From a bacterium (GTDB lineage Bacteria > Bdellovibrionota_C > UBA2361 > RFPC01): DNA of 44,520 nt. The position numbers and the translations under genes were made by a program. Positions 20,454 to 44,364 of the stretch are shown piece by piece (positions within the stretch are counted from its first letter, which is position 1; every line of letters starts with the position of its first letter). The DNA lies in assembly GCA_009926305.1 (NCBI GenBank), contig RFPC01000013.1, forward strand, positions 1 through 44,520, written 5' to 3'. The notes beneath the pieces are model-generated. The model searched no databases, was not told where the DNA came from, and saw only the letters and a program-made list of their open reading frames with translations.

Positions 20454-20513
20454 ATGCGTAAGACTCTCCATCTGCTAGGCGAAAAAGAATTAGGTTATGC
20501 TCCAGTTACTTGA
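20454..20513 (+). CDS. Putative 19-residue leader peptide
   Basis: A short frame starts at ATG 20454, six bases after a strong AAGGAG, and reads MRKTLHLLGEKELGYAPVT to TGA 20511-20513. Its 3' end overlaps the start of the coupling-ATPase gene (ATG 20497) by 17 bases in another frame. The ATPase gene itself has only a weak site (TTAGG two bases before the ATG), so ribosomes finishing the leader could re-initiate on it. Function as a leader is inferred from this arrangement. Alternatively it is a chance ORF near an extended start. Confidence 0.5.
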   Translation: MRKTLHLLGEKELGYAPVT

Positions 20514-22896
20514 AATAGCCCTTCTTCAAGGTGCTCAGGTCTTCTTCGGACTCCCATGGCTCACGAGTGTCGTTGTGTTCGGTGTGCCTGCCGCATATCT
20601 TCTCATTAAGCAAACGAGCAACCAAGACAACTATCTTTGGGGAATTGGAGCCGCTCCGTTAATGCTTCTTATCGGACTCCATGTAGGCGCCAGTGGATGG
20701 ACAATCTCTGAAATTGACTTACTCATTCGAACGATTCGGACACCCCATCCGCAGCCCCCAATTCCTCTGCTCGAACCACTCTTCTCATTGCTCGTAGCAC
20801 CAGCTTCTCACCGGTTTGTATACGAAGAAATCTTTATAGTACTCCTATCAGGGTACCTCGTTTCCCTGGTCCTCTGTTCACTCAAAGAATACAAGTATAC
20901 TGGTTCTGTTCTTGGCGATTTCTCTGTTTCTAGTCTTCTCCAAAATAACAACCGCCGACCGAAAAGGTCTGAGTCAAATGAGCTCGGTTCAGCAGATCTC
21001 GCGACCAGAGATGACATACTACGCTGGACAAAAGAACGCACCGACCACACACACTTCCCTCCGTACACGAAGTTAAATGTCTATGATCTTCAAGGAAGCG
21101 ATGGTATTTCGCTGAAAAAAGGCCACATCATGATACCTCAAGGGGAGCGTAACCGACACATGCTCATGGTTGCCAAGACTGGTGGTGGTAAAACAACAAA
21201 GTTTATTCTTCCAATTCTCTATGATGATTGTCTATGCCCACACCGGTCAACCATCGTACTCGATTCCAAGCCAGAAATGTGGTCAAAGCTCGCGAACTTC
21301 ACCCGCAAGTATAACCCAGAGAAAGAACTGGTTCTGTTCAATCCTCTTGATACCGTGAGAAGTCTGAGTTGGAACATCCTCTCAAAGATTGACGATGATA
21401 CGGATGCGAAGTTAATTGCAAACACTATTATCTCGGCAACCGATCAACCAAACGCAAAGTCCGACAGCCCCTTTTTCCGCAATAATGCGCTAGCTATCCT
21501 GAACGCGATCATGGTCGGGCTCCTGAACGATCCTGAAGATACGATGTCCATGCCACGTATTCACGAGCTGGTCCAATCAGGTATGAAAGAGTTAGGGAAC
21601 TGGATCGAGGCTCATCCACATGCATTAAGAACAGCCAAGACCTTCGTTGAACTTGCTCGCTCTGGATCTCAAAACGCGGACACCATTATGTCCGAACTCT
21701 CCATGCGTCTTGCAGCGTGGGACCTTAAAGCGATTCGTTCTACCACCTGGCTCAATGAATTTGATCCGGAACTCCTCGTTGAAAAGCCCACTCTGATGGT
21801 CGTAGAGCTTAGAGAATCCGAACTTGAGATGCTACGTCCCATGGCGAACGTAATCATCGTTGAATTACTTCGCTTTCTCACTAAAAGAGCGGAATCTTGC
21901 CCAGGACACAAACTTCCACGTCCAGTTGGATTCGTTATTGACGAATTTGCCAGTGCCCTCGGACGCTTGCCCGATATTCATGTGAAGCTCAACACCCTGC
22001 GTTCTCGTAATGTAAGTATTGTTGCGGCAATTCAATCGATTGCCCAGGTCAAAGCCAACTATGGAGATGATTCCGACTCTGTACTTGCTGGTTTTAGCAC
22101 CAAAATCTTCCTTCCTCCCCTCGATCTTCAAGACTCCGAGTGGGCCTCGAAGGAAACAGGTCAGATGACTATTCGCTTCACGACGCAATCGACTGGCAGC
22201 AACCGAAAGAAGGTTGAATTTTTTGCGAGCCAAAACGATGGGACGCAAGAGCAAGTACAGCAACGAGCGGTTCTTACTCCAGATGAAATCGGACGTCCTG
22301 CAGATAAAATAATGACCTTTTTCCTTCCAGAAACCCGACCCTTCCAAGGTCATATGGAGTTCTATTTCAAGATTCCAGAGATGCTCCGCCGCATTAATGA
22401 GTCTGAAGAAGCTCCTGAGCTCAAGCTTCGGGAAGGGCCGATTGAATTTGAAGAAACACTTCCCACTGCGAGTAGTGGAGATGGACAGCCCTCAACTGGT
22501 GGTGCAGGCGGGAATAGTGGAGGCCTCCCAGCCGGAATATCAGACACCCGAGGGTGGAATGATGAACAAGTGAACGAAAAGCTCACCGAAATTAAGGCGA
22601 AACTTGACTGGGAAAATACTACTGGAAGTGCGCGAAAATGGTGGGAAGCATTCGAAAATGAGAATAAACATCGCATGGCACTGGTACTTCGGCTTGCAGA
22701 GGAATTGGCAAATCGGAATGCCACGATCACCGAGTTCTTTCTCGCCTATGTCTACTCGAACACAGATAATATTCAAGCAAACCTCTTTTACCTTGACTAC
22801 ACTCGGTTAAAGAAAGACGAAGAAAAAAAGAAGAAAGAGGCTGCTGCCCAAGCAAACGGTGACTCTGATAACTCTTCAACATCAGCTGCTGGCTAA
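20497..22896 (+). CDS. VirD4/TraG-type coupling ATPase, solitary
   Basis: An inner-membrane DNA/protein-pumping ATPase of the type IV coupling protein family. The N-terminus has about three membrane segments (near residues 18-37, 46-66 and 107-130). The motor domain has an altered Walker A AKTGGGKTT near residue 225, STIVLDSKPEMW, and the Walker B VGFVIDEFASALGRLPD near residue 478. RSRNVSIVAAIQSIAQV follows. The 799-residue protein has an unusual C-terminus: a Gly/Ser linker (about 655-685), then a helical domain (about 685-780) and a charged tail. No relaxase, VirB-type genes or transposon features are nearby, so its partners are unknown. Confidence 0.85.
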   Translation: MLQLLEIALLQGAQVFFGLPWLTSVVVFGVPAAYLLIKQTSNQDNYLWGIGAAPLMLLIGLHVGASGWTISEIDLLIRTIRTPHPQPPIPLLEPLFSLLVAPASHRFVYEEIFIVLLSGYLVSLVLCSLKEYKYTGSVLGDFSVSSLLQNNNRRPKRSESNELGSADLATRDDILRWTKERTDHTHFPPYTKLNVYDLQGSDGISLKKGHIMIPQGERNRHMLMVAKTGGGKTTKFILPILYDDCLCPHRSTIVLDSKPEMWSKLANFTRKYNPEKELVLFNPLDTVRSLSWNILSKIDDDTDAKLIANTIISATDQPNAKSDSPFFRNNALAILNAIMVGLLNDPEDTMSMPRIHELVQSGMKELGNWIEAHPHALRTAKTFVELARSGSQNADTIMSELSMRLAAWDLKAIRSTTWLNEFDPELLVEKPTLMVVELRESELEMLRPMANVIIVELLRFLTKRAESCPGHKLPRPVGFVIDEFASALGRLPDIHVKLNTLRSRNVSIVAAIQSIAQVKANYGDDSDSVLAGFSTKIFLPPLDLQDSEWASKETGQMTIRFTTQSTGSNRKKVEFFASQNDGTQEQVQQRAVLTPDEIGRPADKIMTFFLPETRPFQGHMEFYFKIPEMLRRINESEEAPELKLREGPIEFEETLPTASSGDGQPSTGGAGGNSGGLPAGISDTRGWNDEQVNEKLTEIKAKLDWENTTGSARKWWEAFENENKHRMALVLRLAEELANRNATITEFFLAYVYSNTDNIQANLFYLDYTRLKKDEEKKKKEAAAQANGDSDNSSTSAAG

Positions 22897-33018: not shown

Positions 33019-34167
33019 TTGAAATCCCCCAATTATCAACTTGCTCAGTCCCGTCTCTCTGACTTTATCACTCGGGCTGATAGCTATGAGCAAAATAGAG
33101 GCTTTATTCGAGACTCTCCTTCAACTGTCTCTCAACTCTCACCTTTTATTCGATATCGATTCCTTCATGAACGAGAAATCCTTCAGGCGTTGCTAGATGT
33201 GCATTCCTTTACGAGCGTTGAGAAATTTGTTCAGGAGCTCTCTTGGAGAACCTATTGGAGAGGATGGCTCATGAGAAATCCCAATATCTGGGAGCTATAT
33301 ACGAACAAAGTAAATTTGCTGTTGGCTGATGCCAAAGAATCTTTCCAAAGCTATGAACACGCTATTCGTGGAGAGACTCACCTTCCCTACTTTAATGACT
33401 GGATTCATGAATTAAAAGAGACTGGCTATCTTCATAATCATGTTCGTATGTGGTTCGCGAGCATTTGGTATTTTACCCTTCAGCTCCCATGGGAGCTTGG
33501 CGCACACTGGATGTATCAACATCTGCTTGATGGAGATCCCGCATCAAATACTCTTTCTTGGCGTTGGGTGGTGGGGCTGCATACACGGGGCAAAGTGTAT
33601 CTTGCCACTCCCCAAAATATTCACCAATTTTCAGAAGGACGTTGGAGCCCTCTTTCCTCCGACCTTTCAACTACAGGGATTGCGGCACAAGAAGAAACCA
33701 GCACAATCGTGGGACAGAACGTCTTCTTACCAAAGGCGTTCGAAAATACCGACGCAACTCTGCCTCTCATACTCTGTAGAGAACAACTCACTCCGCCTCG
33801 GCTTTGGTCTGGCCCCCTTTTCTATCTTGATCTTGAGATACCCGATCCCGAGTTGAAACGGAATACGTGGTCAACAGCGCTTTTAAAGGAGGCGTGTGCT
33901 CATTATAGCTCTCAGAGTCCCCTTCCGCTTCAAGACCTCATTGTCCTTCTTCTTCAGAACGGCTACTCAAAAGTCTGCTTTCTCCGCCCACAACCAGGCG
34001 AGCACTTCACGCAGCTCACAAAAGGCATTCATTCCCTCAGTAAGCACTCTATCGAAGTCCAACTGATAGACGATCCATGGGACCAGGCGCTTTTCCCCTT
34101 TGCAGAAAAGGGCTTTTTCCCTTTTTGGAAACACGCAAAAAAATGGCTGAAAAACTGCTCGGGATAA
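33019..34167 (+). CDS. Photolyase/cryptochrome-like flavoprotein with permuted domain order
   Basis: Residues 1-235 match the helical FAD-binding domain of the photolyase/cryptochrome family: LSPFIRYRFLHEREI, WRTYWRGWL, LPYFNDWIHELKETGYLHNHVRMW, and DGDPASNTLSWRWVVG. The usual N-terminal alpha/beta antenna domain is absent in front. After a linker, residues about 245-382 form an alpha/beta segment that resembles the second half of that antenna domain (YSKVCFLRPQPGEHF, VQLIDDPWDQALF) and ends with FFPFWKHAKKWL. That ending is like the FTPFWK that closes the antenna domain in ordinary photolyases. The start is TTG with AGAGGT upstream. Substrate (DNA repair or signalling) is unknown. Confidence 0.75.
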   Translation: MKSPNYQLAQSRLSDFITRADSYEQNRGFIRDSPSTVSQLSPFIRYRFLHEREILQALLDVHSFTSVEKFVQELSWRTYWRGWLMRNPNIWELYTNKVNLLLADAKESFQSYEHAIRGETHLPYFNDWIHELKETGYLHNHVRMWFASIWYFTLQLPWELGAHWMYQHLLDGDPASNTLSWRWVVGLHTRGKVYLATPQNIHQFSEGRWSPLSSDLSTTGIAAQEETSTIVGQNVFLPKAFENTDATLPLILCREQLTPPRLWSGPLFYLDLEIPDPELKRNTWSTALLKEACAHYSSQSPLPLQDLIVLLLQNGYSKVCFLRPQPGEHFTQLTKGIHSLSKHSIEVQLIDDPWDQALFPFAEKGFFPFWKHAKKWLKNCSG

Positions 34168-35837: not shown

Positions 35838-37088
35838 TTAATTAAGAAGTATCCACCAAACGGCTATTACAAAAAGAAGAAGCAGCAGGAAAATGCCTAA
35901 GAAGACCAGCATTCGCTCATCGAATGAGCCATAACGTACTCCATTCATGGAGGCCGATTGGTTTTTCTTTCGTAAGGCACTACCATACAAAACACCTGAA
36001 TCGTCATCGACTCCATCAGGATCATCGACTATCAAACGTCCGAAATGAGATGAAAGCGTTGGGCGCCTACCCAATGAACCGGAACTATCCCTCTCAGAAC
36101 TATCCCATGCATTGAGCGACAACAGAGTATCATCATTATTACTATGACTATACATGATGGTTGCTCTGTCGTTCAGATCAAGTTCATTCATGTCAGAAAA
36201 AGAATTGAGCTCTGGCTCTGAAGAGAAAGTAGCCTCCTCATCAAGCCCCATGTTATCCAATCTCTGGGTAGCATTACTATCATGGGTTGAAGAATCTTCC
36301 TGCTGTTGAGACTCCATCCAACTTCTCAGGTCAGTCCTCGTTCCTCCACTACCCGAGGAAAATCCGCTTCCTAACGCACTTTGGTGTAGCACGGGCTGAT
36401 CATTAATAATGATGGAATACCTTCCAGTATGAATTACATCTCGGTCCGAAAGCAGTGTTTTGTCGAGTAACAATTCCCCATTCAGAGTACTCTTGGATTC
36501 GGTCTCTCGACTATAGGCAACGAGCACATCTTGAATCTGCTCGATTATAACGCCTGCTTGTTCTGAAGACTGAGACCGAAGCGAAACATCCGCTCCAACG
36601 CCTCCCAAGCTGAGTTTCTTCCCCTCATCCGGAAGTGCAATTTGCTGATTGAACACTCCGTCACAGAAAAGGATCAGGGAGCGCGAACTCTGTTTATTCA
36701 ACGACAAACCATGTGTGTTCAGCGAGACACGAGGCTGAGTTGGTCGTTCATCAGCCTGAAGAGCCGTTTCGTTACAATACACACGAAACACCCTGTCAGC
36801 TAACTGAATGTAATCATGGTCACGGATTAAAACCCACTCATCCGCTGAGACCGTTAATCCATTGAGCCAAGAACCATTCGTGCTCTGCAGATCCTTGAAG
36901 AACCAGTGATTGCCAAAGCGTGCTATTCTCGCATGCTCACGCGATATGGCAGCAAAAGGAATAACAATCCCTGCATCAGGATCGCGACCTATACACGCAT
37001 CTCCCGCAGGGATTTCGACGTTCCACTCTGTCGATTCATCACCCACCATCTGTAGCGCAAGAGAACAGGTCATAGCATCGGATTCCAA
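35838..37088 (-). CDS. FHA-domain protein with C-terminal membrane anchor
   Basis: Residues 25-105 form a forkhead-associated domain that binds phosphothreonine peptides: ACIGRDPDAGIVIP, ISREHARI, DLQSTNGSWLNG. Residues about 135-235 look like a second, degenerate FHA (KLSLGGVGADVSL, STLNGELLLD). An acidic linker follows. A membrane helix lies near the end (FLGIFLLLLLFVIAVWWILLN), so the FHA part is probably cytoplasmic. The start is TTG 37088 (AAGG upstream) or ATG 37073. It differs from SctD, which also begins with an FHA fold, because it has no periplasmic domain after the helix. It is 97 bases downstream of the FlhB-like gene. Confidence 0.8.
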   Translation of the reverse strand: MESDAMTCSLALQMVGDESTEWNVEIPAGDACIGRDPDAGIVIPFAAISREHARIARFGNHWFFKDLQSTNGSWLNGLTVSADEWVLIRDHDYIQLADRVFRVYCNETALQADERPTQPRVSLNTHGLSLNKQSSRSLILFCDGVFNQQIALPDEGKKLSLGGVGADVSLRSQSSEQAGVIIEQIQDVLVAYSRETESKSTLNGELLLDKTLLSDRDVIHTGRYSIIINDQPVLHQSALGSGFSSGSGGTRTDLRSWMESQQQEDSSTHDSNATQRLDNMGLDEEATFSSEPELNSFSDMNELDLNDRATIMYSHSNNDDTLLSLNAWDSSERDSSGSLGRRPTLSSHFGRLIVDDPDGVDDDSGVLYGSALRKKNQSASMNGVRYGSFDERMLVFLGIFLLLLLFVIAVWWILLN

Positions 37089-37185: not shown

Positions 37186-37455
37186 TTATTGGAAAGACTT
37201 TAGCTCAGTAAGAATCAGCGCTACTGCCTCATACAGGTCTTCTGGTATTCTTTCATCAAGGGGAATTCCGTAAAGAAGCTCCGAGATCTCACTTCGTTCC
37301 ACCACTGGCACACCAAATCGGCGGGCAATACGGACCACCTCATCAGCAGTCCGATCTTCCCCCTTCACCATTACTTGGGGAGCCTCATCATTCGTAGCCT
37401 CATAAGCGAGGCCGACGGCATATTGATATTGGCTAAGACCCTTCCTGCTTACCAT
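37186..37455 (-). CDS. Separate SctU/FlhB cytoplasmic C-terminal domain protein
   Basis: 89 residues that align with the portion of FlhB/SctU after the NPTH cleavage site: YQYAVGLAYEATNDEAPQVMVKG, RIARRFGVPVVE and IPEDLYEAVALIL. The gene starts before this region without an NPTH motif (MVSRKGLSQYQYAVGL). Stand-alone proteins of this kind (FhlB/FlhX) are known beside flagellar systems, and in Campylobacter one can replace the missing part of FlhB. AGGAGAGGGG precedes the ATG, 13 bases after the kinase stop. Here it can supply the domain missing from the truncated SctU at 40773-41579. Confidence 0.85.
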   Translation of the reverse strand: MVSRKGLSQYQYAVGLAYEATNDEAPQVMVKGEDRTADEVVRIARRFGVPVVERSEISELLYGIPLDERIPEDLYEAVALILTELKSFQ

Positions 37456-37468
37456 AGCAGCCCCTCTC

Positions 37469-40400
37469 CTAATGCACCTTTGTTCGAAACCCTTCTTTTA
37501 CATGATCCTGTTGAGTTACCTGCTGTTGGCCGAACTCCGATATCTTTTGATTATCTTCCGTTTTTTGAGAGAACTTTTTCTCGACTTGACGAGTTAGCTT
37601 CTTCCTCTCATCGGATTGGGAGCTATACGAGGAATCAAAGACGTTTTTCATAACTCTCTGAATCGCCCGAATACTCAGCGGCTTTTCAACAACCGTAGTC
37701 GCTGAATCCTCTCTCAAGGCGTCATACCAATGATTCCGAGAGACTGTCATAACAACAAATAACAAATTTTTCTCAGCTTGCCGTAGCGTATCAATGATCG
37801 ACAAAGTAGATTTCCCGAGATAATCGGCATCAATAACTACTAGCTTTATTTCTTTCAACCTCTCGTCTTCAGCCAGGGTTTGCATCCCATCCATATCATG
37901 CATCACATAAGAATCGACCCCAAACGTCTCAAACATATTCTGCACAGCAAGGGCTGGAGAACCGCCTGGTAACAATAAAAGCACCCGCTGAGGCGTATGC
38001 GCTGCTAAAACCGTATCGTTTTCTACCGTGTTCACTGACTCTAGTAAGGGAAAAAAGAGGGAAAAGGTCGTACCCTCACCCACCACACTCGCAACAGAAA
38101 TCATTCCTCCATGCTGTTGAACGATTGAGTAAGCAGAGGATAGGCCTAATCCTGCACCCGACAAGCTAAGTCCCGTACTTTCATCGAGGCTCTTACTCGA
38201 ATAAAACGGTTCAAAACAGCGAGCCAGTCGCTCTTCATTCATCCCCTGTCCATTGTCTTTGATATCCAATCTTACATACTCGCCCGGAGACAGGCTCGGA
38301 TCTACCTCTCCTGAGCTAACGCGCACTCGACGAAGCGAAAGTTCAACAACCCCCTCTTGAGCCTCCGCCTCGATGGCTTCTTTTGCATTCGCCAACAAAT
38401 TCGAAATGACTTGCTGCAAAGAACTTACATCTCCGTCTATTTCCAAATTCATCTCATCCACATGTATGAGCAATTCAATGGCTCCTCCAAGCATAGAGGT
38501 GAACAGGTCACGAGAATTCTCTATCATCTGCGACAAAGACACTCGCTCACGAGGACTGACTGCACCGGATGCAAGCTCAAGAAGTTGTCGCACTAAAGCA
38601 GCTCCTTTCCCCGCTGAATCAATAATGGCAGTCGCGATATCTTGCATCGAGGACTTCTCCTCTGACTGCATTTGAATGAGCGAGGCATGCCCCATTACGG
38701 TCTGTAAAAGGTTATTGAAATTATGCGCGACACCGGAGGCAAGCATATTCGCGACTCTCATCTTATCAGATTCTGCGATTCTCTCTTCAAAATGACGGGC
38801 CATGAGAATTGTCGCCACCTGGTCTGTCATCCGTACGAGTAAGGGAAGCTTTTTCTGAATGTAGTCCTCTGAACCAATCACGGGCTCCAGGACAAGAACT
38901 CCCACCACTTGCTCAAGAGAGACGAGTGGGAGAATAACAAGTGTTCCGACGGTGATTTTCTGAAAGAATCTATTGAGGCCTGAACACTCCATCTCTGAGC
39001 CCTTAGGAAGAATAATAGGCTGCTTGCTTGAAATTGCCTCATCGAAAAAATCGTGTCGCAAGCCGAGTTCTATCTGAATATCTTTCACCGACTGACGCAC
39101 GCTCGGACCTATCCCCGCCTGCCCGACTATATGCGTGCCTTGGTTATTCATAATCCCAAACCAAGCCCTTTTACACGCTACTTGTTGCTGGATATTATGA
39201 AAGAGATGCTCTCCGATCTCTTGACCTCGTGAAAGCTTGCTGAGCTCATGGGTTAATCGATACAAGGCTGATACCGCTTCGGTTTCCTTCTTCTCCGCGG
39301 TGTAAAATTCAGCTTGTCTTGCCGCAAAACTGATTTGACTTGCCGCTGCGGCCACAACCTGAAAATCAGCCTCACTGTATTTATTCTGCGTTGGTGAAAA
39401 AACAACCAGCGCGCCTAAAATTCTGGGGCCACTCGAGAGGGGCATAATAATCGAGCCCTTCACTCCTTCTCGACGGGCAAGATCTTGCGCTGCTCTAGAA
39501 TCTCTCTGTATATTTTCGATTCGTAAACCCCTATTTTCTTCGATTGCATGTCGTAAAAGATTTGGCCCATCAAATATCTTTGAAAGCCCATCAATATACT
39601 CTTGGGATAAGCCTTCTGCTGCCACCATCTCAAGACTCTGTGTGTCCTGATCATAAAAGCAGCAGAGCCCGCCCGAGGAACTCGTAACTCGAATGAGTGC
39701 ATTCAATCCTTTCAAGGCTACAAGTGCCGGATCCACATTAACACGGAGTGCTCTTGAGACCTCATAGAGCGCTTCAATCCGTTGACGCTGCATACGCAAT
39801 TCACTTTCAACAAGCCGCCTCTCTGAAATATCAATTACGAACGCTTCCCATCCAACGCATACATTTTCAGCGAATACCGGAGTTGCCTTGACAAGTAGCC
39901 ATCGCCACATATCCTCTCCATAGCGCCTGTAGCGAATCTCTTCGCCAAATTCTTGAGCGCGCTTTCCCATTCGCCGAATTCGAAGTGCCATTCGCCGAAG
40001 ATCCACGGGGTCAAAGAGTTTCTCCCAGATATCGTCTCGCTCGACTATCTTTTCCTCTGACACTCCGAAAAACTTCTGACTATTACCACAGACCTCCGTA
40101 ATACGAAGGTTAGTCGCTATCTTTAACAATATGAGCTGCCCATATTCGAGCAGTCGCTCAAAGTCGCGTTCCTTGAAAGACCTGGTAGATGTCTCGGACA
40201 GAGATATTTGCTCCCTTACCTTTGGAGCTTTCATTACTGCCTTATGATTATTTGCAGGAACAATCGCGCCTTGCTCTGGACGCGAGGCAACGCTTAATAA
40301 TTGCTCTGCAATAGTATCAGCAATACCCTGTAGCAGCCGGCGTTCGGTAGCATCCCATGAGCTCGACTTGCCATTCAGTCCGACAACCAGAAGACCCTTT

Positions 40401-40783
40401 AATCGATTTCTTACGTAAATACCGATGAATGCACACGAGCGAATTTCCAGCTGCAAGAGAAGCTTTCTCAGCGCAGCATGCTCTCTCATTCCCCGCGTAT
40501 GAAGGGCAAAAAGGGGAAGTGATAAACGTCTTCCCTGAAACAAAACATGTCCACGATGGACAGCAAAAGATTTGGGATTTCCGAGTACCTGTTTTAAAGA
40601 TTGAGAGTTCGAAAAGGCAAGGTTTCCTTTCTTTCCAAAGAACACGATACCAGAGGATAGATAACCTCGTCTCTGCTGCAACTCGTCGAGCACTCGTGAT
40701 ACCGCGCTTGTTACATTAGACTCCTCTTTGAAAACTTCTTGAATCCAGAGGTTTCTATATGGAGAAGAGGAATTACGACTCAT
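37469..40783 (-). CDS. Multi-domain sensor histidine kinase with degenerate receiver
   Basis: 1104 residues, no membrane helices. In order: GAF-like (about 15-165), PAS with PAC (about 205-330), GAF (about 340-490), GAF (about 505-670). The H box is GVAHNFNNLLQTVMGHASL, with His 687. The HATPase has NLLANAKEAIE, DIKDNGQGM and GAGLGLSSAYSI. A receiver-like domain lies at about 930-1045. The receiver has lost the acidic pair (LLLPGGSPAL where DD/DE is expected) but keeps VVIDADYLG and VVEKPLS. The last 60 residues are polar. It overlaps the sctU stop by 11 bases and lies just upstream of the FlhB-like gene, so it is inside the secretion operon. Confidence 0.9.
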   Translation of the reverse strand: MSRNSSSPYRNLWIQEVFKEESNVTSAVSRVLDELQQRRGYLSSGIVFFGKKGNLAFSNSQSLKQVLGNPKSFAVHRGHVLFQGRRLSLPLFALHTRGMREHAALRKLLLQLEIRSCAFIGIYVRNRLKGLLVVGLNGKSSSWDATERRLLQGIADTIAEQLLSVASRPEQGAIVPANNHKAVMKAPKVREQISLSETSTRSFKERDFERLLEYGQLILLKIATNLRITEVCGNSQKFFGVSEEKIVERDDIWEKLFDPVDLRRMALRIRRMGKRAQEFGEEIRYRRYGEDMWRWLLVKATPVFAENVCVGWEAFVIDISERRLVESELRMQRQRIEALYEVSRALRVNVDPALVALKGLNALIRVTSSSGGLCCFYDQDTQSLEMVAAEGLSQEYIDGLSKIFDGPNLLRHAIEENRGLRIENIQRDSRAAQDLARREGVKGSIIMPLSSGPRILGALVVFSPTQNKYSEADFQVVAAAASQISFAARQAEFYTAEKKETEAVSALYRLTHELSKLSRGQEIGEHLFHNIQQQVACKRAWFGIMNNQGTHIVGQAGIGPSVRQSVKDIQIELGLRHDFFDEAISSKQPIILPKGSEMECSGLNRFFQKITVGTLVILPLVSLEQVVGVLVLEPVIGSEDYIQKKLPLLVRMTDQVATILMARHFEERIAESDKMRVANMLASGVAHNFNNLLQTVMGHASLIQMQSEEKSSMQDIATAIIDSAGKGAALVRQLLELASGAVSPRERVSLSQMIENSRDLFTSMLGGAIELLIHVDEMNLEIDGDVSSLQQVISNLLANAKEAIEAEAQEGVVELSLRRVRVSSGEVDPSLSPGEYVRLDIKDNGQGMNEERLARCFEPFYSSKSLDESTGLSLSGAGLGLSSAYSIVQQHGGMISVASVVGEGTTFSLFFPLLESVNTVENDTVLAAHTPQRVLLLLPGGSPALAVQNMFETFGVDSYVMHDMDGMQTLAEDERLKEIKLVVIDADYLGKSTLSIIDTLRQAEKNLLFVVMTVSRNHWYDALREDSATTVVEKPLSIRAIQRVMKNVFDSSYSSQSDERKKLTRQVEKKFSQKTEDNQKISEFGQQQVTQQDHVKEGFRTKVH

Positions 40784-41579
40784 CTCTACTCAATTCCCTC
40801 CTCTTTACTACAACAACTCGAGTCTTCTTAATGCGGTTTATAATTTCACCTGTCGCGAGCTCCTGTTGAAGGGCTCGTCGATGACCCTTCACCTGAGGAT
40901 CTCCTTCGCTGTCCTTCCACTCCCTTTTCATCTCCTCATCACTCATACGCTGTTCTTTCAAAAAGACAGCTCGCTTATATATTCGCTCTATTAGGCCTAC
41001 TAATCCGAAAAAGCAGATCAGTTCTAGTCCAAAGAGTGTCGCTAAAGATCTGGCACGCCCTCCGATGACCTCGGCTGGAAGAAGCCACTGAACAGGAACA
41101 TCAGCGAGATGAGCACGTACAGTAACAAACACAATTATTGCAGCTCCTAAAAATTTTACGATCAGAAACCAGCTCTCTTTCAGCTGTTTTCCAACTTTTT
41201 GAACTCCTTGAACAGGATTTAAGCGAGAAAAATCCAGCCGAAGAGGTCGCAAAGCCACGCGGATTCCCACCTGAAGCACTTCGCCAAAGAGCACTCCGAG
41301 TAAACCCATACCGAGGATCACTATGGTGCTCCAGAGAGCGCGGTCTCTCCAAAATGCACTCCAATCACCTATTCTGTGACTTTCAGGATATGCAGAATAG
41401 TGTAACACCATTTCAGAACTACTCCAGAAAAGATGTGCTGAGATGAAAAGACCACAAAAAACTCCAACTATCTGACATGATTGAGTAAATACTGGGCTTT
41501 TTGCTACCTGCCCTTCCCTCCTCGCCTTCTCAAGCTTCTGAGGGGTTGCTTCATGTTGCTTTGAGGCGGCACTACTCAT
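40773..41579 (-). CDS. sctU: Type III export apparatus switch protein SctU, lacking the C-terminal domain
   Basis: Residues 1-268: N-terminal KQHEATPQKLEKARREGQVAKS, which is diagnostic for FlhB/SctU. Four membrane helices lie within about 30-200. The cytoplasmic segment has RMSDEEMKREWKDSEGDPQVKGHRR. The frame then ends at TRVVVVKRRELSRDES, exactly where related proteins read VVVTNPTH and continue into the autocleaved switch domain. Other frames after the stop give no NPTH, and the kinase starts inside the overlap, so a simple frameshift is not seen. A separate domain gene lies at 37186-37455. AGGA precedes the ATG. SctU and SctT/R/S form the export gate. Confidence 0.9.
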   Translation of the reverse strand: MSSAASKQHEATPQKLEKARREGQVAKSPVFTQSCQIVGVFCGLFISAHLFWSSSEMVLHYSAYPESHRIGDWSAFWRDRALWSTIVILGMGLLGVLFGEVLQVGIRVALRPLRLDFSRLNPVQGVQKVGKQLKESWFLIVKFLGAAIIVFVTVRAHLADVPVQWLLPAEVIGGRARSLATLFGLELICFFGLVGLIERIYKRAVFLKEQRMSDEEMKREWKDSEGDPQVKGHRRALQQELATGEIINRIKKTRVVVVKRRELSRDES

Positions 41580-41588
41580 GGGGTCGTC

Positions 41589-42350
41589 CTAGCCTCCAAA
41601 GGCTGAAATACTCTGCCGAGCCATTCGAGCTGCATTTTCAGCAAGTTCTATAGCAATATCCCGATGAAGGAGACTGAACGAAGTAATGAGTAAAATAAGG
41701 AGTATCCCGCTCTTTACAAAAAATAGCTCTCCAAATATCGGTAGCCCTGGAACAAGTTTAGAGAGAAACCCCACGCCAATATCACAGAGCATAAAGATAA
41801 ATCCTATAGGAAGAAAAATAGTGAGGCCTGTTACAAAAAGCTGGAATGAATAGTGAAGAAACTGGCTCGAGAACTCTAAGAAACCTTGATGCCAAATAGT
41901 ATGTCCAACCGGTAGCTTTTCGAAACTTTCAAATAAAAGTATGAGATAGTCAGTGTGAATTCCTGTGATAAATAATCCGCAGATAAAACTCATCTGCAAC
42001 AAACGCGGAAAAGGATTTTCAGAAAACATGTCTGTCGATGCTCCATACATCATCCCGAGGTTCTGTCCCCTTGCTTGCTCCAGCAATTCACCAAGCGTGC
42101 GAAACACTTCCGCTACAAGAGAAATAGGAAATACAAGGCTTAATCCAATAAGTACTTCAATAGGATAAGAAACAGGCAGCGCTTGGAAATGTTCGTCAAC
42201 AGACAAAGGCACACATATAAAAGCCAAGGAAAGTGCAAGGGAAACTCGTGCTGCTAGTGGGATAATTGCATAACCACCAGGCAATATCAGAACTCCACCA
42301 AAAATTCGGAGAAAGGTGAGAAGGAATTGTTCTTGGAGGATAGAGCTCAT
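41589..42350 (-). CDS. sctT: Type III export apparatus protein SctT (FliR/YscT family)
   Basis: 253 residues with six or more membrane helices. N-terminal LLTFLRIFGGVLILPGG, then LGELLEQARGQNLGMMYG, the conserved phrase of the family. The C-terminal region has FGELFFVKSGILLILLI. Together with SctR and SctS it builds the helical export gate in the inner membrane. The ATG is two bases after the sctS stop, and sctU follows after 9 bases. Confidence 0.92.
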   Translation of the reverse strand: MSSILQEQFLLTFLRIFGGVLILPGGYAIIPLAARVSLALSLAFICVPLSVDEHFQALPVSYPIEVLIGLSLVFPISLVAEVFRTLGELLEQARGQNLGMMYGASTDMFSENPFPRLLQMSFICGLFITGIHTDYLILLFESFEKLPVGHTIWHQGFLEFSSQFLHYSFQLFVTGLTIFLPIGFIFMLCDIGVGFLSKLVPGLPIFGELFFVKSGILLILLITSFSLLHRDIAIELAENAARMARQSISAFGG

Positions 42351-42353
42351 ATC

Positions 42354-42611
42354 TTACTGTCCAAGATACCGAATGGAGTAATAGCTCCACGTCAGGTATT
42401 CAGTCAACGTCTGATACATAAGGCGTCCCGCTATCGCGAGAACTCCGGCTAAAGAAAAACCCTTTAACAAAAATCCTATTGATTGTTCCTGAATTTGCGT
42501 TGCAGCTTGAATCAGAGCGCCGATAAGACTAATCCCGGTTGAGACCAGGAGAGGTATTCCCGAAAGCACTAAAACGAGAAACAATCCAGTCTCAATCAGT
42601 GAGCCTATCAT
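42354..42611 (-). CDS. sctS: Type III export apparatus protein SctS (FliQ/YscS family)
   Basis: About 85 residues with two membrane helices. It shows ETGLFLVLVLSGIPLLVSTGISLIGALIQAATQIQEQSIGF in broken form (the helix pair and the QxQE-type loop TQIQEQ typical of FliQ). The ATG at 42611 is preferred over upstream starts, since GAGGAG lies just upstream and it matches the family N-terminus. This start overlaps the sctR stop region (42613) closely. SctS forms part of the export gate with SctR and SctT. Confidence 0.92.
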   Translation of the reverse strand: MIGSLIETGLFLVLVLSGIPLLVSTGISLIGALIQAATQIQEQSIGFLLKGFSLAGVLAIAGRLMYQTLTEYLTWSYYSIRYLGQ

Positions 42612-42612
42612 A

Positions 42613-43299
42613 CTAAACTCCTCCCGTGAGACGATACGACTGCACAAGCCCCGTTGTTAACAACAGCCATCCATCAGCAAAGGTAAAAAGAGCTATTTTT
42701 AATGGCAAAGAGATCATTACGGGACTAACCATAAACATCCCAATTCCCGCAAGAATATTCGCAACGATAAGATCAATTACGAGAAAGGGAATCATGATTA
42801 CAAACCCCATCAAAAAAGCCTCTTTGAGCTCAGTTACTACGAAAGCAGAAAGCAAAACCGTCCAACTATCGCGACTTTCCTTTTCGACGAGCGTACCTTG
42901 AGCCTCATTGTGTGACGGATTGTCATTCATATCAGAGAAGATCTTTAACTCTCGAGTTCCTGAGTGTCTTCTCAAAAAGTCTCTCCAGGGTGAAAAAAGC
43001 TCTGTCATCTCTTCCCTCGCTACAGTGAGAGGATCAGTTGACAGCCTTTCCACCGGAAACGTTTTTAACCTCGTATGGAAATCATCGATGGTCGGGTGCA
43101 TAACGGAGAGGGTTAAAGCAAAAGAGATCCCGAGCAATACAAGCCCACCTGGCACCTGTTGTGCCCCGAGTCCCGCGCGAAAGAAGCTCAGGACAATGTG
43201 TATCTTCATAAAGGAAGTAAAGAGACCGACGAGCAGCGGGGTCAATGCTAGACCCATACTCACAAAAACGAGCCAATATGGATGTTGCGCTGAAGACAT
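42613..43299 (-). CDS. sctR: Type III export apparatus protein SctR (FliP/YscR family)
   Basis: 228 residues with four membrane helices. It contains TSFMKIHIVLSFFRAGLGAQQVPGG in broken form (a family hallmark). A large polar loop (about 85-150) follows helix two, then TELKEAFLMGFVIMIPFLVIDL and GMFMVSPVMISLPLKIALF. There is no signal peptide, unlike flagellar FliP, which favours a non-flagellar-type system. The ATG follows the upstream stop directly (TAAATG). Confidence 0.93.
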   Translation of the reverse strand: MSSAQHPYWLVFVSMGLALTPLLVGLFTSFMKIHIVLSFFRAGLGAQQVPGGLVLLGISFALTLSVMHPTIDDFHTRLKTFPVERLSTDPLTVAREEMTELFSPWRDFLRRHSGTRELKIFSDMNDNPSHNEAQGTLVEKESRDSWTVLLSAFVVTELKEAFLMGFVIMIPFLVIDLIVANILAGIGMFMVSPVMISLPLKIALFTFADGWLLLTTGLVQSYRLTGGV

Positions 43300-44364
43300 T
43301 TATTCCCCCTGCACAACACGAAGACTTTCGAGCTTGAAACCTGATGTTGCAAGTCGAGCACCTATTTTTACTCGCAGTCGTTCAAGAGGAATATTTTCTT
43401 CCCTATCCGCTATCAGGATCAGTGAGAGATGATTTTGCCGTCTCCGCTCTATGGCCACCTGAACATGCTCTTTTGCGCTCAGTGCGAAGTGAAACACAAG
43501 GTGATGATTCCCGTGCTCATCCTGCCAATGCTTTGCCTCTTCGAATGGTGCCCTCGGCTCATCTGTTGAGCGATCATCTTGCAGCACGGCGTTGTCTGTT
43601 CTTTCACTATCCTGTCCTGAATGCGAAGGATAATCCTTTGAATCCTGGAATTGACAATCAATTGGAGACGAAAAAAATCCGCTACGCGACCCGAAGTCAA
43701 CAAGAGATTCTTTCCCTGTTTCTCCTATCATAGCCTGAGTCTCTTCCTGAATTTCAAGCTCCACATCTGCGCCTTCTCGAACGGCTTCTTTTTCCACAAC
43801 TGGTAATGTGCTCACTTCACCTGACGATGTGTTGGAAAGAGGGATGCTCATTAGAACGGGCTCTGAGGCAGCATACGGTGAAGGCTGTTCAATGACACGA
43901 GAAGGCACTGGCATCACCCTGAACGTTTCTTGCTTTCTCTGCCTGCAAACAGCAAGCATTTGCATATTTTCTAATTCAGCTTCTTCTGCAATACCTTTTT
44001 GAAGCAGCTGATGGTCATTTTTTTTCTTCGCTACTATCTCTAGTTTCTTTTCATAAAATGCGAGCTGTCTCGCCAGACGATTCGACTGCCGTGTCATCCC
44101 ATCAATACTCTTCTTCAATTCTCTCTGATGCTGCCGAGAGGCTCGAATTGTGGATACGAAATCAACAAACTTTCTCGGAGTTATAGCAAAGCGGTTTTCC
44201 AGAAAATCTGCTTTCAGGAGACGATGTGTTTCATGCGTCTTTGAAATATCTTTGCTCATGCGCGCGATTTTTCGCTCTATAGTATTTCTGAGCCTGCGCA
44301 GATCGTCTTGTCGCATCTCACCTTCACGTTGCAAAAAGTTCAGCCGGTCAAAGGAAAGGGTCAT
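43300..44364 (-). CDS. Fused SctO-like stalk / SctP-like (FliK/HpaP) protein
   Basis: 354 residues in three parts. Residues about 1-145 are a long charged coiled coil (FLQREGEMRQDDLRRLRNTI, KSIDGMTRQSNRLARQLAFY) like SctO/FliJ, the export-ATPase stalk. Residues 146-280 are a polar, acidic linker. Residues 285-352 read like the C-terminal domain of FliK/SctP/HpaP: HHLVFHFALSAKEHVQVAIE, LSLILIAD, LERLRVKIGARLATSGFKL, then ESLRVVQG. In usual order sctO and sctP are separate genes between sctN and sctQ-R. Here the fused gene lies between sctI and sctR. The assignment of both ends is by pattern only. Confidence 0.7.
   Translation of the reverse strand: MTLSFDRLNFLQREGEMRQDDLRRLRNTIERKIARMSKDISKTHETHRLLKADFLENRFAITPRKFVDFVSTIRASRQHQRELKKSIDGMTRQSNRLARQLAFYEKKLEIVAKKKNDHQLLQKGIAEEAELENMQMLAVCRQRKQETFRVMPVPSRVIEQPSPYAASEPVLMSIPLSNTSSGEVSTLPVVEKEAVREGADVELEIQEETQAMIGETGKESLVDFGSRSGFFSSPIDCQFQDSKDYPSHSGQDSERTDNAVLQDDRSTDEPRAPFEEAKHWQDEHGNHHLVFHFALSAKEHVQVAIERRRQNHLSLILIADREENIPLERLRVKIGARLATSGFKLESLRVVQGE

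Follow-up and report, generated by a model that had tools for sequence, protein, structure and literature searches.

The window, that is, the whole stretch of DNA analysed here, is an entire contig (C13; 44,520 bases) of a 2.99 Mb draft genome assembled in 281 contigs and 95.9% complete. Near its right end, the minus strand carries sctR, sctS, sctT and a sctU of only 268 residues, followed by genes for a histidine kinase, an 89-residue protein and an FHA protein. In gene order, the features of this region are:

43300..44364, minus strand: coiled-coil protein, possible SctO-SctP fusion, whose C-terminal domain is FliK-like in relatives
42613..43299, minus strand: sctR, FliP family (PF00813, E 6e-54; above the cut-off of the NCBIfam SctR subfamily)
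42354..42647, minus strand: sctS, FliQ family (PF01313, E 5e-15)
41589..42350, minus strand: sctT, FliR family (PF01311, E 1e-26)
40773..41579, minus strand: sctU_N, membrane part of SctU with the linker helix and the strand preceding the cleavage site, 268 aa, lacking NPTH (PF01312 positions 2-256, E 5e-45; profile match to CN chains; member of the split-SctU clade)
40806..40817, minus strand: codons of VVVV (residues 255-258 of SctU_N), the strand that precedes NPTH in FlhB/SctU (alignment with 30 FlhBs)
37469..40783, minus strand: histidine kinase, 1104 aa, with GAF, PAS, HisKA and HATPase_c domains (Pfam)
37186..37455, minus strand: sctU_C, stand-alone SctU C-terminal domain, 89 aa (PF01312 positions 260-333, E 6e-18)
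35838..37088, minus strand: FHA protein (PF00498, E 6e-16) with a hydrophobic C-terminus

The clustering of the sctR, sctS, sctT and sctU export gate genes is a feature of non-flagellar type III secretion systems (T3SSs). Apart from flhA and fliF, the genome also contains two FHIPEP genes and two YscJ genes, which are candidates for sctV and sctJ, respectively. Among ten aligned relatives of the coiled-coil protein, five carry a Flg_hook domain (PF02120; best E 5.5e-4), which is absent from the window member. At the other end of the cluster, the FHA gene comes after sctU_C in those relatives whose contigs extend far enough. The hydrophobic stretch of its product lies at the extreme C-terminus and, unlike in SctD, leaves no space for a periplasmic domain. 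A promoter scan returned promoter-like sites no more frequently than in shuffled sequences.

Several other secretion-related or unusual genes were observed. Within the window, a TraG/VirD4-type type IV secretion coupling protein adjoins an unrecognised 746-aa protein (20497-22896), and a 382-aa protein (33019-34167) matches only part of the photolyase FAD-binding domain, possibly representing a shortened photolyase-like protein. A second T3SS-like set in the same genome (L191:4561-12355, contig C5 of G000) includes FHA proteins, YscJ, a weak FliMN_C match and FliP; here the place of sctU is taken by a 180-aa membrane protein with no PF01312 match. At a further locus (L188:10526-12628), a SctV/FlhA-type gene adjoins Tad/Flp pilus-type genes (T2SSF, T2SSE, RcpC).

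The two proteins of the window divide a single domain family between them. The PF01312 profile has 335 positions, and NPTH, which is absent from both proteins, would fall between the match of the 268-residue protein (2-256) and that of the 89-residue protein (260-333). SctU_N ends in RVVVVKRRELSRDES, its stop lying 10 residues at or after the position of the NPTH cleavage Asn, and the C-terminal domain has a gene of its own at a distance of 3.3 kb. The initial annotation had placed both open reading frames at these positions, with sctU ending where FlhB/SctU proteins carry NPTH and the small protein corresponding to the domain that follows the motif; its coordinates and sequence readings were correct, and the profile matches bear out both assignments. 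It had also named two findings that would remove the claim, a full-length SctU elsewhere in the genome and a frameshift restoring the motif. None of the three forward frames downstream of the sctU stop encodes the C domain. Furthermore, the genome holds three good PF01312 matches, namely SctU_N, SctU_C and one full-length protein on contig C3, which possesses NPTH and is encoded directly upstream of a flhA-type gene, identifying it as the flagellar FlhB. A PF01312 search of the 95.9% complete draft found no full-length SctU besides this FlhB. The SctUs found on plasmids were all distant, with less than 60% identity.

A PF01312 search was extended to 58 genomes, mostly relatives of the window genome, and the proteins were extracted with an HMM built on the full-length, NPTH-bearing proteins from these same genomes. 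The pattern recurred: one match ending at about position 256 and, in most cases about 3-4 kb beyond it on that contig and strand, a second starting near 260. As judged from open-frame length, a truncated SctU is present in at least 35 of 46 genomes of the window's phylum (two of them cut by contig ends), so the survey of relatives proposed in the initial annotation recovered the same split. Two additional genomes (G029 and G031) gave shorter matches that possibly represent divergent members, and a broken FlhB-like gene from another phylum (L067), which passed the HMM cut-offs, was excluded from the counts. All 34 truncated SctUs retain the hydrophobic strand directly before the cleavage site, as aligned with 30 FlhBs, and stop 1-20 residues (median 7) at or after the NPTH Asn position. 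The motif itself occurs in 0/34 of these proteins versus 30/30 distinct full-length FlhBs (28 from the window's phylum and two from other phyla). Frames longer than 350 residues number one per genome, and those fetched were FlhBs with NPTH, except in G034, where one frame runs through an internal stop and is a member of a shorter SctU-like family; no full-length non-flagellar SctU was seen in the 46 genomes. Both halves are under purifying selection, with NG86 dN/dS values for the pairs of finite dS of about 0.16-0.24 for SctU_N and 0.11-0.26 for SctU_C; these values are rough, as dS is above 1, and the other pairs were saturated. Because the split recurs across the phylum and both genes are under purifying selection, it is real and not a product of chance.

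The shorter SctU-like family mentioned above ends earlier still, before the docking strand, and its genes do not include a C domain (L059:8015-8719, L070:4940-5668, L071:5070-5813, L072:2413-3171 and L073:4857-5639). It fits the idea that the docking strand is retained only where a SctU_C partner exists.

Outside this group, a split at the cleavage site was found in none of 80 SctU loci from other genomes, of which 66 are full-length with NPTH, 13 are full-length and have either a variant motif or none, and one is interrupted by a contig end. Samples of three further phyla, in which rare splits may have gone unsampled, gave a similar picture. For the phylum of a Myxococcales genome (58 genomes), all 34 PF01312 proteins are full-length; for that of a Bdellovibrionales genome (about 60 genomes), 40 are full-length and two are broken by contig ends or stops, with no stand-alone domain; and for that of a Desulfovibrio genome (59 genomes), 35 full-length proteins and 26 FhlB-type stand-alone domains were found, with no truncated SctU. 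As a separate observation, some full-length SctUs of other bacteria lack an NPTH-like motif (Variovorax, Burkholderia, Rhizobium sullae) or carry NPVH, NPIH, NPQH or NPTE in its place (L111, L113, L140, L145 and L170; also L099, L105, L121, L157, L164 and L168).

The origin of the split was addressed by phylogeny. In a tree of the N-terminal part, built without the longest branches, the 28 split SctUs included form one clade (ultrafast bootstrap 98, SH-aLRT 85; recovered in 200/200 bootstrap trees) nested among full-length SctUs from many phyla, and the window SctU groups with non-flagellar SctUs and not with FlhB. A fuller, quicker tree agrees, and in it the still shorter SctU-like family falls inside the split clade. 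The simplest reading of these sequences would be one old fission. Among the C domains, those linked to sct genes also form one clade (SH-aLRT 97, with L082 included), apart from a separate clade of FhlB-type proteins (93/98). In this tree of 80 columns, the stand-alone domain may derive either from the fission of SctU or from the recruitment of another copy.

Structure prediction is consistent with the two halves corresponding to the two chains of a cleaved protein. The AlphaFold model of SctU_C (pLDDT 87) matches the CC chains of FlhB, PscU, YscU and EscU with a TM of about 0.8-0.9, including 3b0z_B, 3b1s, 5cul_B and 6ejp, and SctU_C is thus predicted to adopt the FlhB_CC fold. In profile comparisons with cleaved structures, the truncated SctU corresponds over nearly its whole length to the CN chains, and the small protein likewise to the CC chains. 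The monomer model of SctU_N found no match in the PDB.

The gene between the two halves, which was absent from the initial annotation, belongs to the conserved arrangement. Both halves lie on one contig and strand in 24 genomes, and in 22 of these an orthologue of the window kinase is located directly between them, its frame in most cases overlapping or abutting the adjacent ones. The first 11 bp of the kinase gene in the window lie within the end of sctU_N, and sctU_C, whose ATG is directly preceded by a purine-rich AGGAG, starts 13 bp past the kinase. The product is a multi-GAF histidine kinase with a nearly invariant H-box and a dN/dS (NG86) of about 0.05 in the one measurable pair. Two exceptions are known: at L049:120-1200 the intervening kinase is missing and 10 bp separate the halves, an arrangement that is either a relic preceding the kinase or a later loss, and at L044 the kinase and sctU_C are separated by 3.4 kb. 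Beyond the 24 genomes, L082 and L092 have the C domain on a contig that also bears the kinase.

These results very probably describe the export gate of a non-flagellar T3SS in which SctU consists permanently of two subunits. Herein, SctU_N (membrane helices, linker and pre-site strand) and SctU_C (globular part) would be produced from separate cistrons and pair through the strand, giving the structure that elsewhere results from cleavage of a single chain at NPTH. With the switch protein already made from two genes, gene splitting seems to have taken the place of self-cleavage; since autocleavage would be neither possible nor needed, the gate would be permanently cleaved in form and competent to switch. 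The proposal of the initial annotation that autocleavage was replaced by separate production of the two parts is thereby strongly supported at the sequence level, with the split at the cleavage site, the absence of NPTH in 34/34 proteins, the linked partner gene and the predicted cleaved-chain fold all pointing the same way. Its further suggestion was that switching may depend on how much of the small protein is present or on how it binds. The overlapping or abutting, apparently co-transcribed genes argue against separate control of the SctU_C amount; they do not speak against control by its binding, removal or exchange, and the change from early to late export would depend on SctU_C staying bound, being removed or being replaced. 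In addition, relatives of the gene upstream of sctR have a FliK-like C-terminal domain, so the trigger of the switch may still be present.

Work on autocleaving systems provides a basis for this mechanism. In Xanthomonas, the HrcU C domain supplied in trans works; the authors concluded that the result of cleavage matters and not the event, and secretion in vitro was only partly restored (PMC3040844). For FlhB, the cleaved C domain is reported to keep the apparatus in the early mode and to be lost when it switches (PMC13344023), and YscU_CC is reported to dissociate and be secreted, the dissociation of YscU_C being irreversible in vitro (PMC3504009). The partial rescue by HrcU and the irreversible dissociation of YscU_C count against the mechanism to some extent, as making the two parts separately may be a less efficient route than cutting a folded chain.

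Other explanations were weighed against this one. The split might be chiefly regulatory, with the kinase sensing whether SctU_C is bound or released and coupling the state of the gate to expression, while re-supply of SctU_C resets the switch. The position of the kinase directly between the halves in 22/24 genomes, with overlapping or abutting frames, its nearly invariant H-box and its low dN/dS in the one measurable pair are in keeping with this idea, as is the kinase FlgS of Helicobacter pylori and Campylobacter jejuni, for which a response to the flagellar export apparatus has been proposed (PMC3930126). FlgS is a precedent for such a response; here, however, the kinase is known by its gene neighbourhood, on which the regulatory reading is built, and both L049, with its halves 10 bp apart and no kinase, and L044, with 3.4 kb between kinase and sctU_C, depart from the expected order. 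Regulation as the main reason for the split is accordingly judged unlikely, at roughly one chance in five. Slightly less probable again is a resettable switch, in which SctU_C would be lost from and re-supplied to the assembled gate, the kinase between the halves reading its occupancy and coupling it to gene expression; because SctU_C is a separate subunit, a one-way switch would thereby have become reversible.

It is considerably less probable that the small protein is an FhlB/FlhX-type homologue, serving the flagellum or acting as a spare part, while the truncated SctU works without a C domain. FhlB-type stand-alone domains are indeed common, with 26 among the 59 genomes from the phylum of Desulfovibrio, several relatives in the window's phylum carry such domains away from sct genes, and the still shorter SctU-like family, whose genes do not include a C domain, ends before the docking strand. 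The sct-linked domains nevertheless form their own clade apart from that of FhlB and show linkage with sctU in 24 genomes, the truncated SctU retains its docking strand, and FhlB normally coexists with the full-length FlhB of the same system. A flagellar FhlB identity was therefore rejected on tree and linkage. The comparison with FhlB drawn in the initial annotation holds for function only, the small protein lying outside the FhlB clade. Only very slight weight is given to a decaying system or a sequencing or assembly error. All genomes concerned are drafts, and the sct genes are scattered over contigs; against this, the same end point is shared by 34 proteins, dN/dS is well below 1, gene order is kept phylum-wide and no alternative frame exists. 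Decay was rejected on selection and conservation, and error or chance on the phylum-wide recurrence of the truncation together with a linked stand-alone domain, and on the lack of an alternative frame.

Compared with known systems, the arrangement combines familiar parts in an unfamiliar way. It shares the membrane part, the C-terminal fold and the boundary residue of cleaved structures with the autocleaving proteins FlhB, YscU, EscU, SpaS and HrcU; here, in contrast, two genes are involved, NPTH is absent and autocleavage is impossible. H. pylori HP1575, a stand-alone homologue of the FlhB C domain (FhlB/FlhX) reported as a 'spare part', likewise offers a separate copy of the domain that follows NPTH. 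FhlB/FlhX proteins, however, have a full-length FlhB partner in their own system, whereas the only full-length homologue alongside the window SctU_C is the flagellar FlhB, and they belong to another clade in the tree of 80 columns. The HrcU experiment shows that a membrane part and a C domain from separate genes can cooperate, but it is a laboratory construct, partly effective for secretion in vitro, while the present arrangement is natural and phylum-wide (PMC3040844). A T3SS core component encoded by two genes is also known from the split secretin rhcC1/rhcC2 of rhizobial-type systems, which concerns another component with no cleavage site and whose parts are argued to have different origins (PMC3574062, PMC3459982). 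The non-flagellar T3SS of Myxococcales ('Myxo') resembles the present system in lying outside the classic host-directed families (PMC3459982); in the 58 genomes sampled from that phylum, however, 34/34 PF01312 proteins are full-length, as opposed to split. No description of a natural two-gene SctU was found in the open-access literature searched. The parts are already known, and what appears new relative to that literature is a natural SctU divided at its cleavage site across a phylum, the genes for its two halves flanking one for a kinase.

Whether the event of FlhB/SctU cleavage or its product is important has long been discussed. A permanently 'pre-cleaved' two-subunit export switch is considered well supported as a whole; the split point, conservation, linkage and N-half clade come directly from sequence comparison and the SctU_C fold is predicted by modelling, while the association of the halves, their switching role, the departure or replacement of SctU_C and a part played by the kinase are inferred. 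A whole phylum appears to have dropped the cleavage event and kept its product, constituting a natural experiment that favours the product. The two-subunit switch could be used for structural and exchange experiments, and the sensor kinase may be an unrecognised partner of the export gate.
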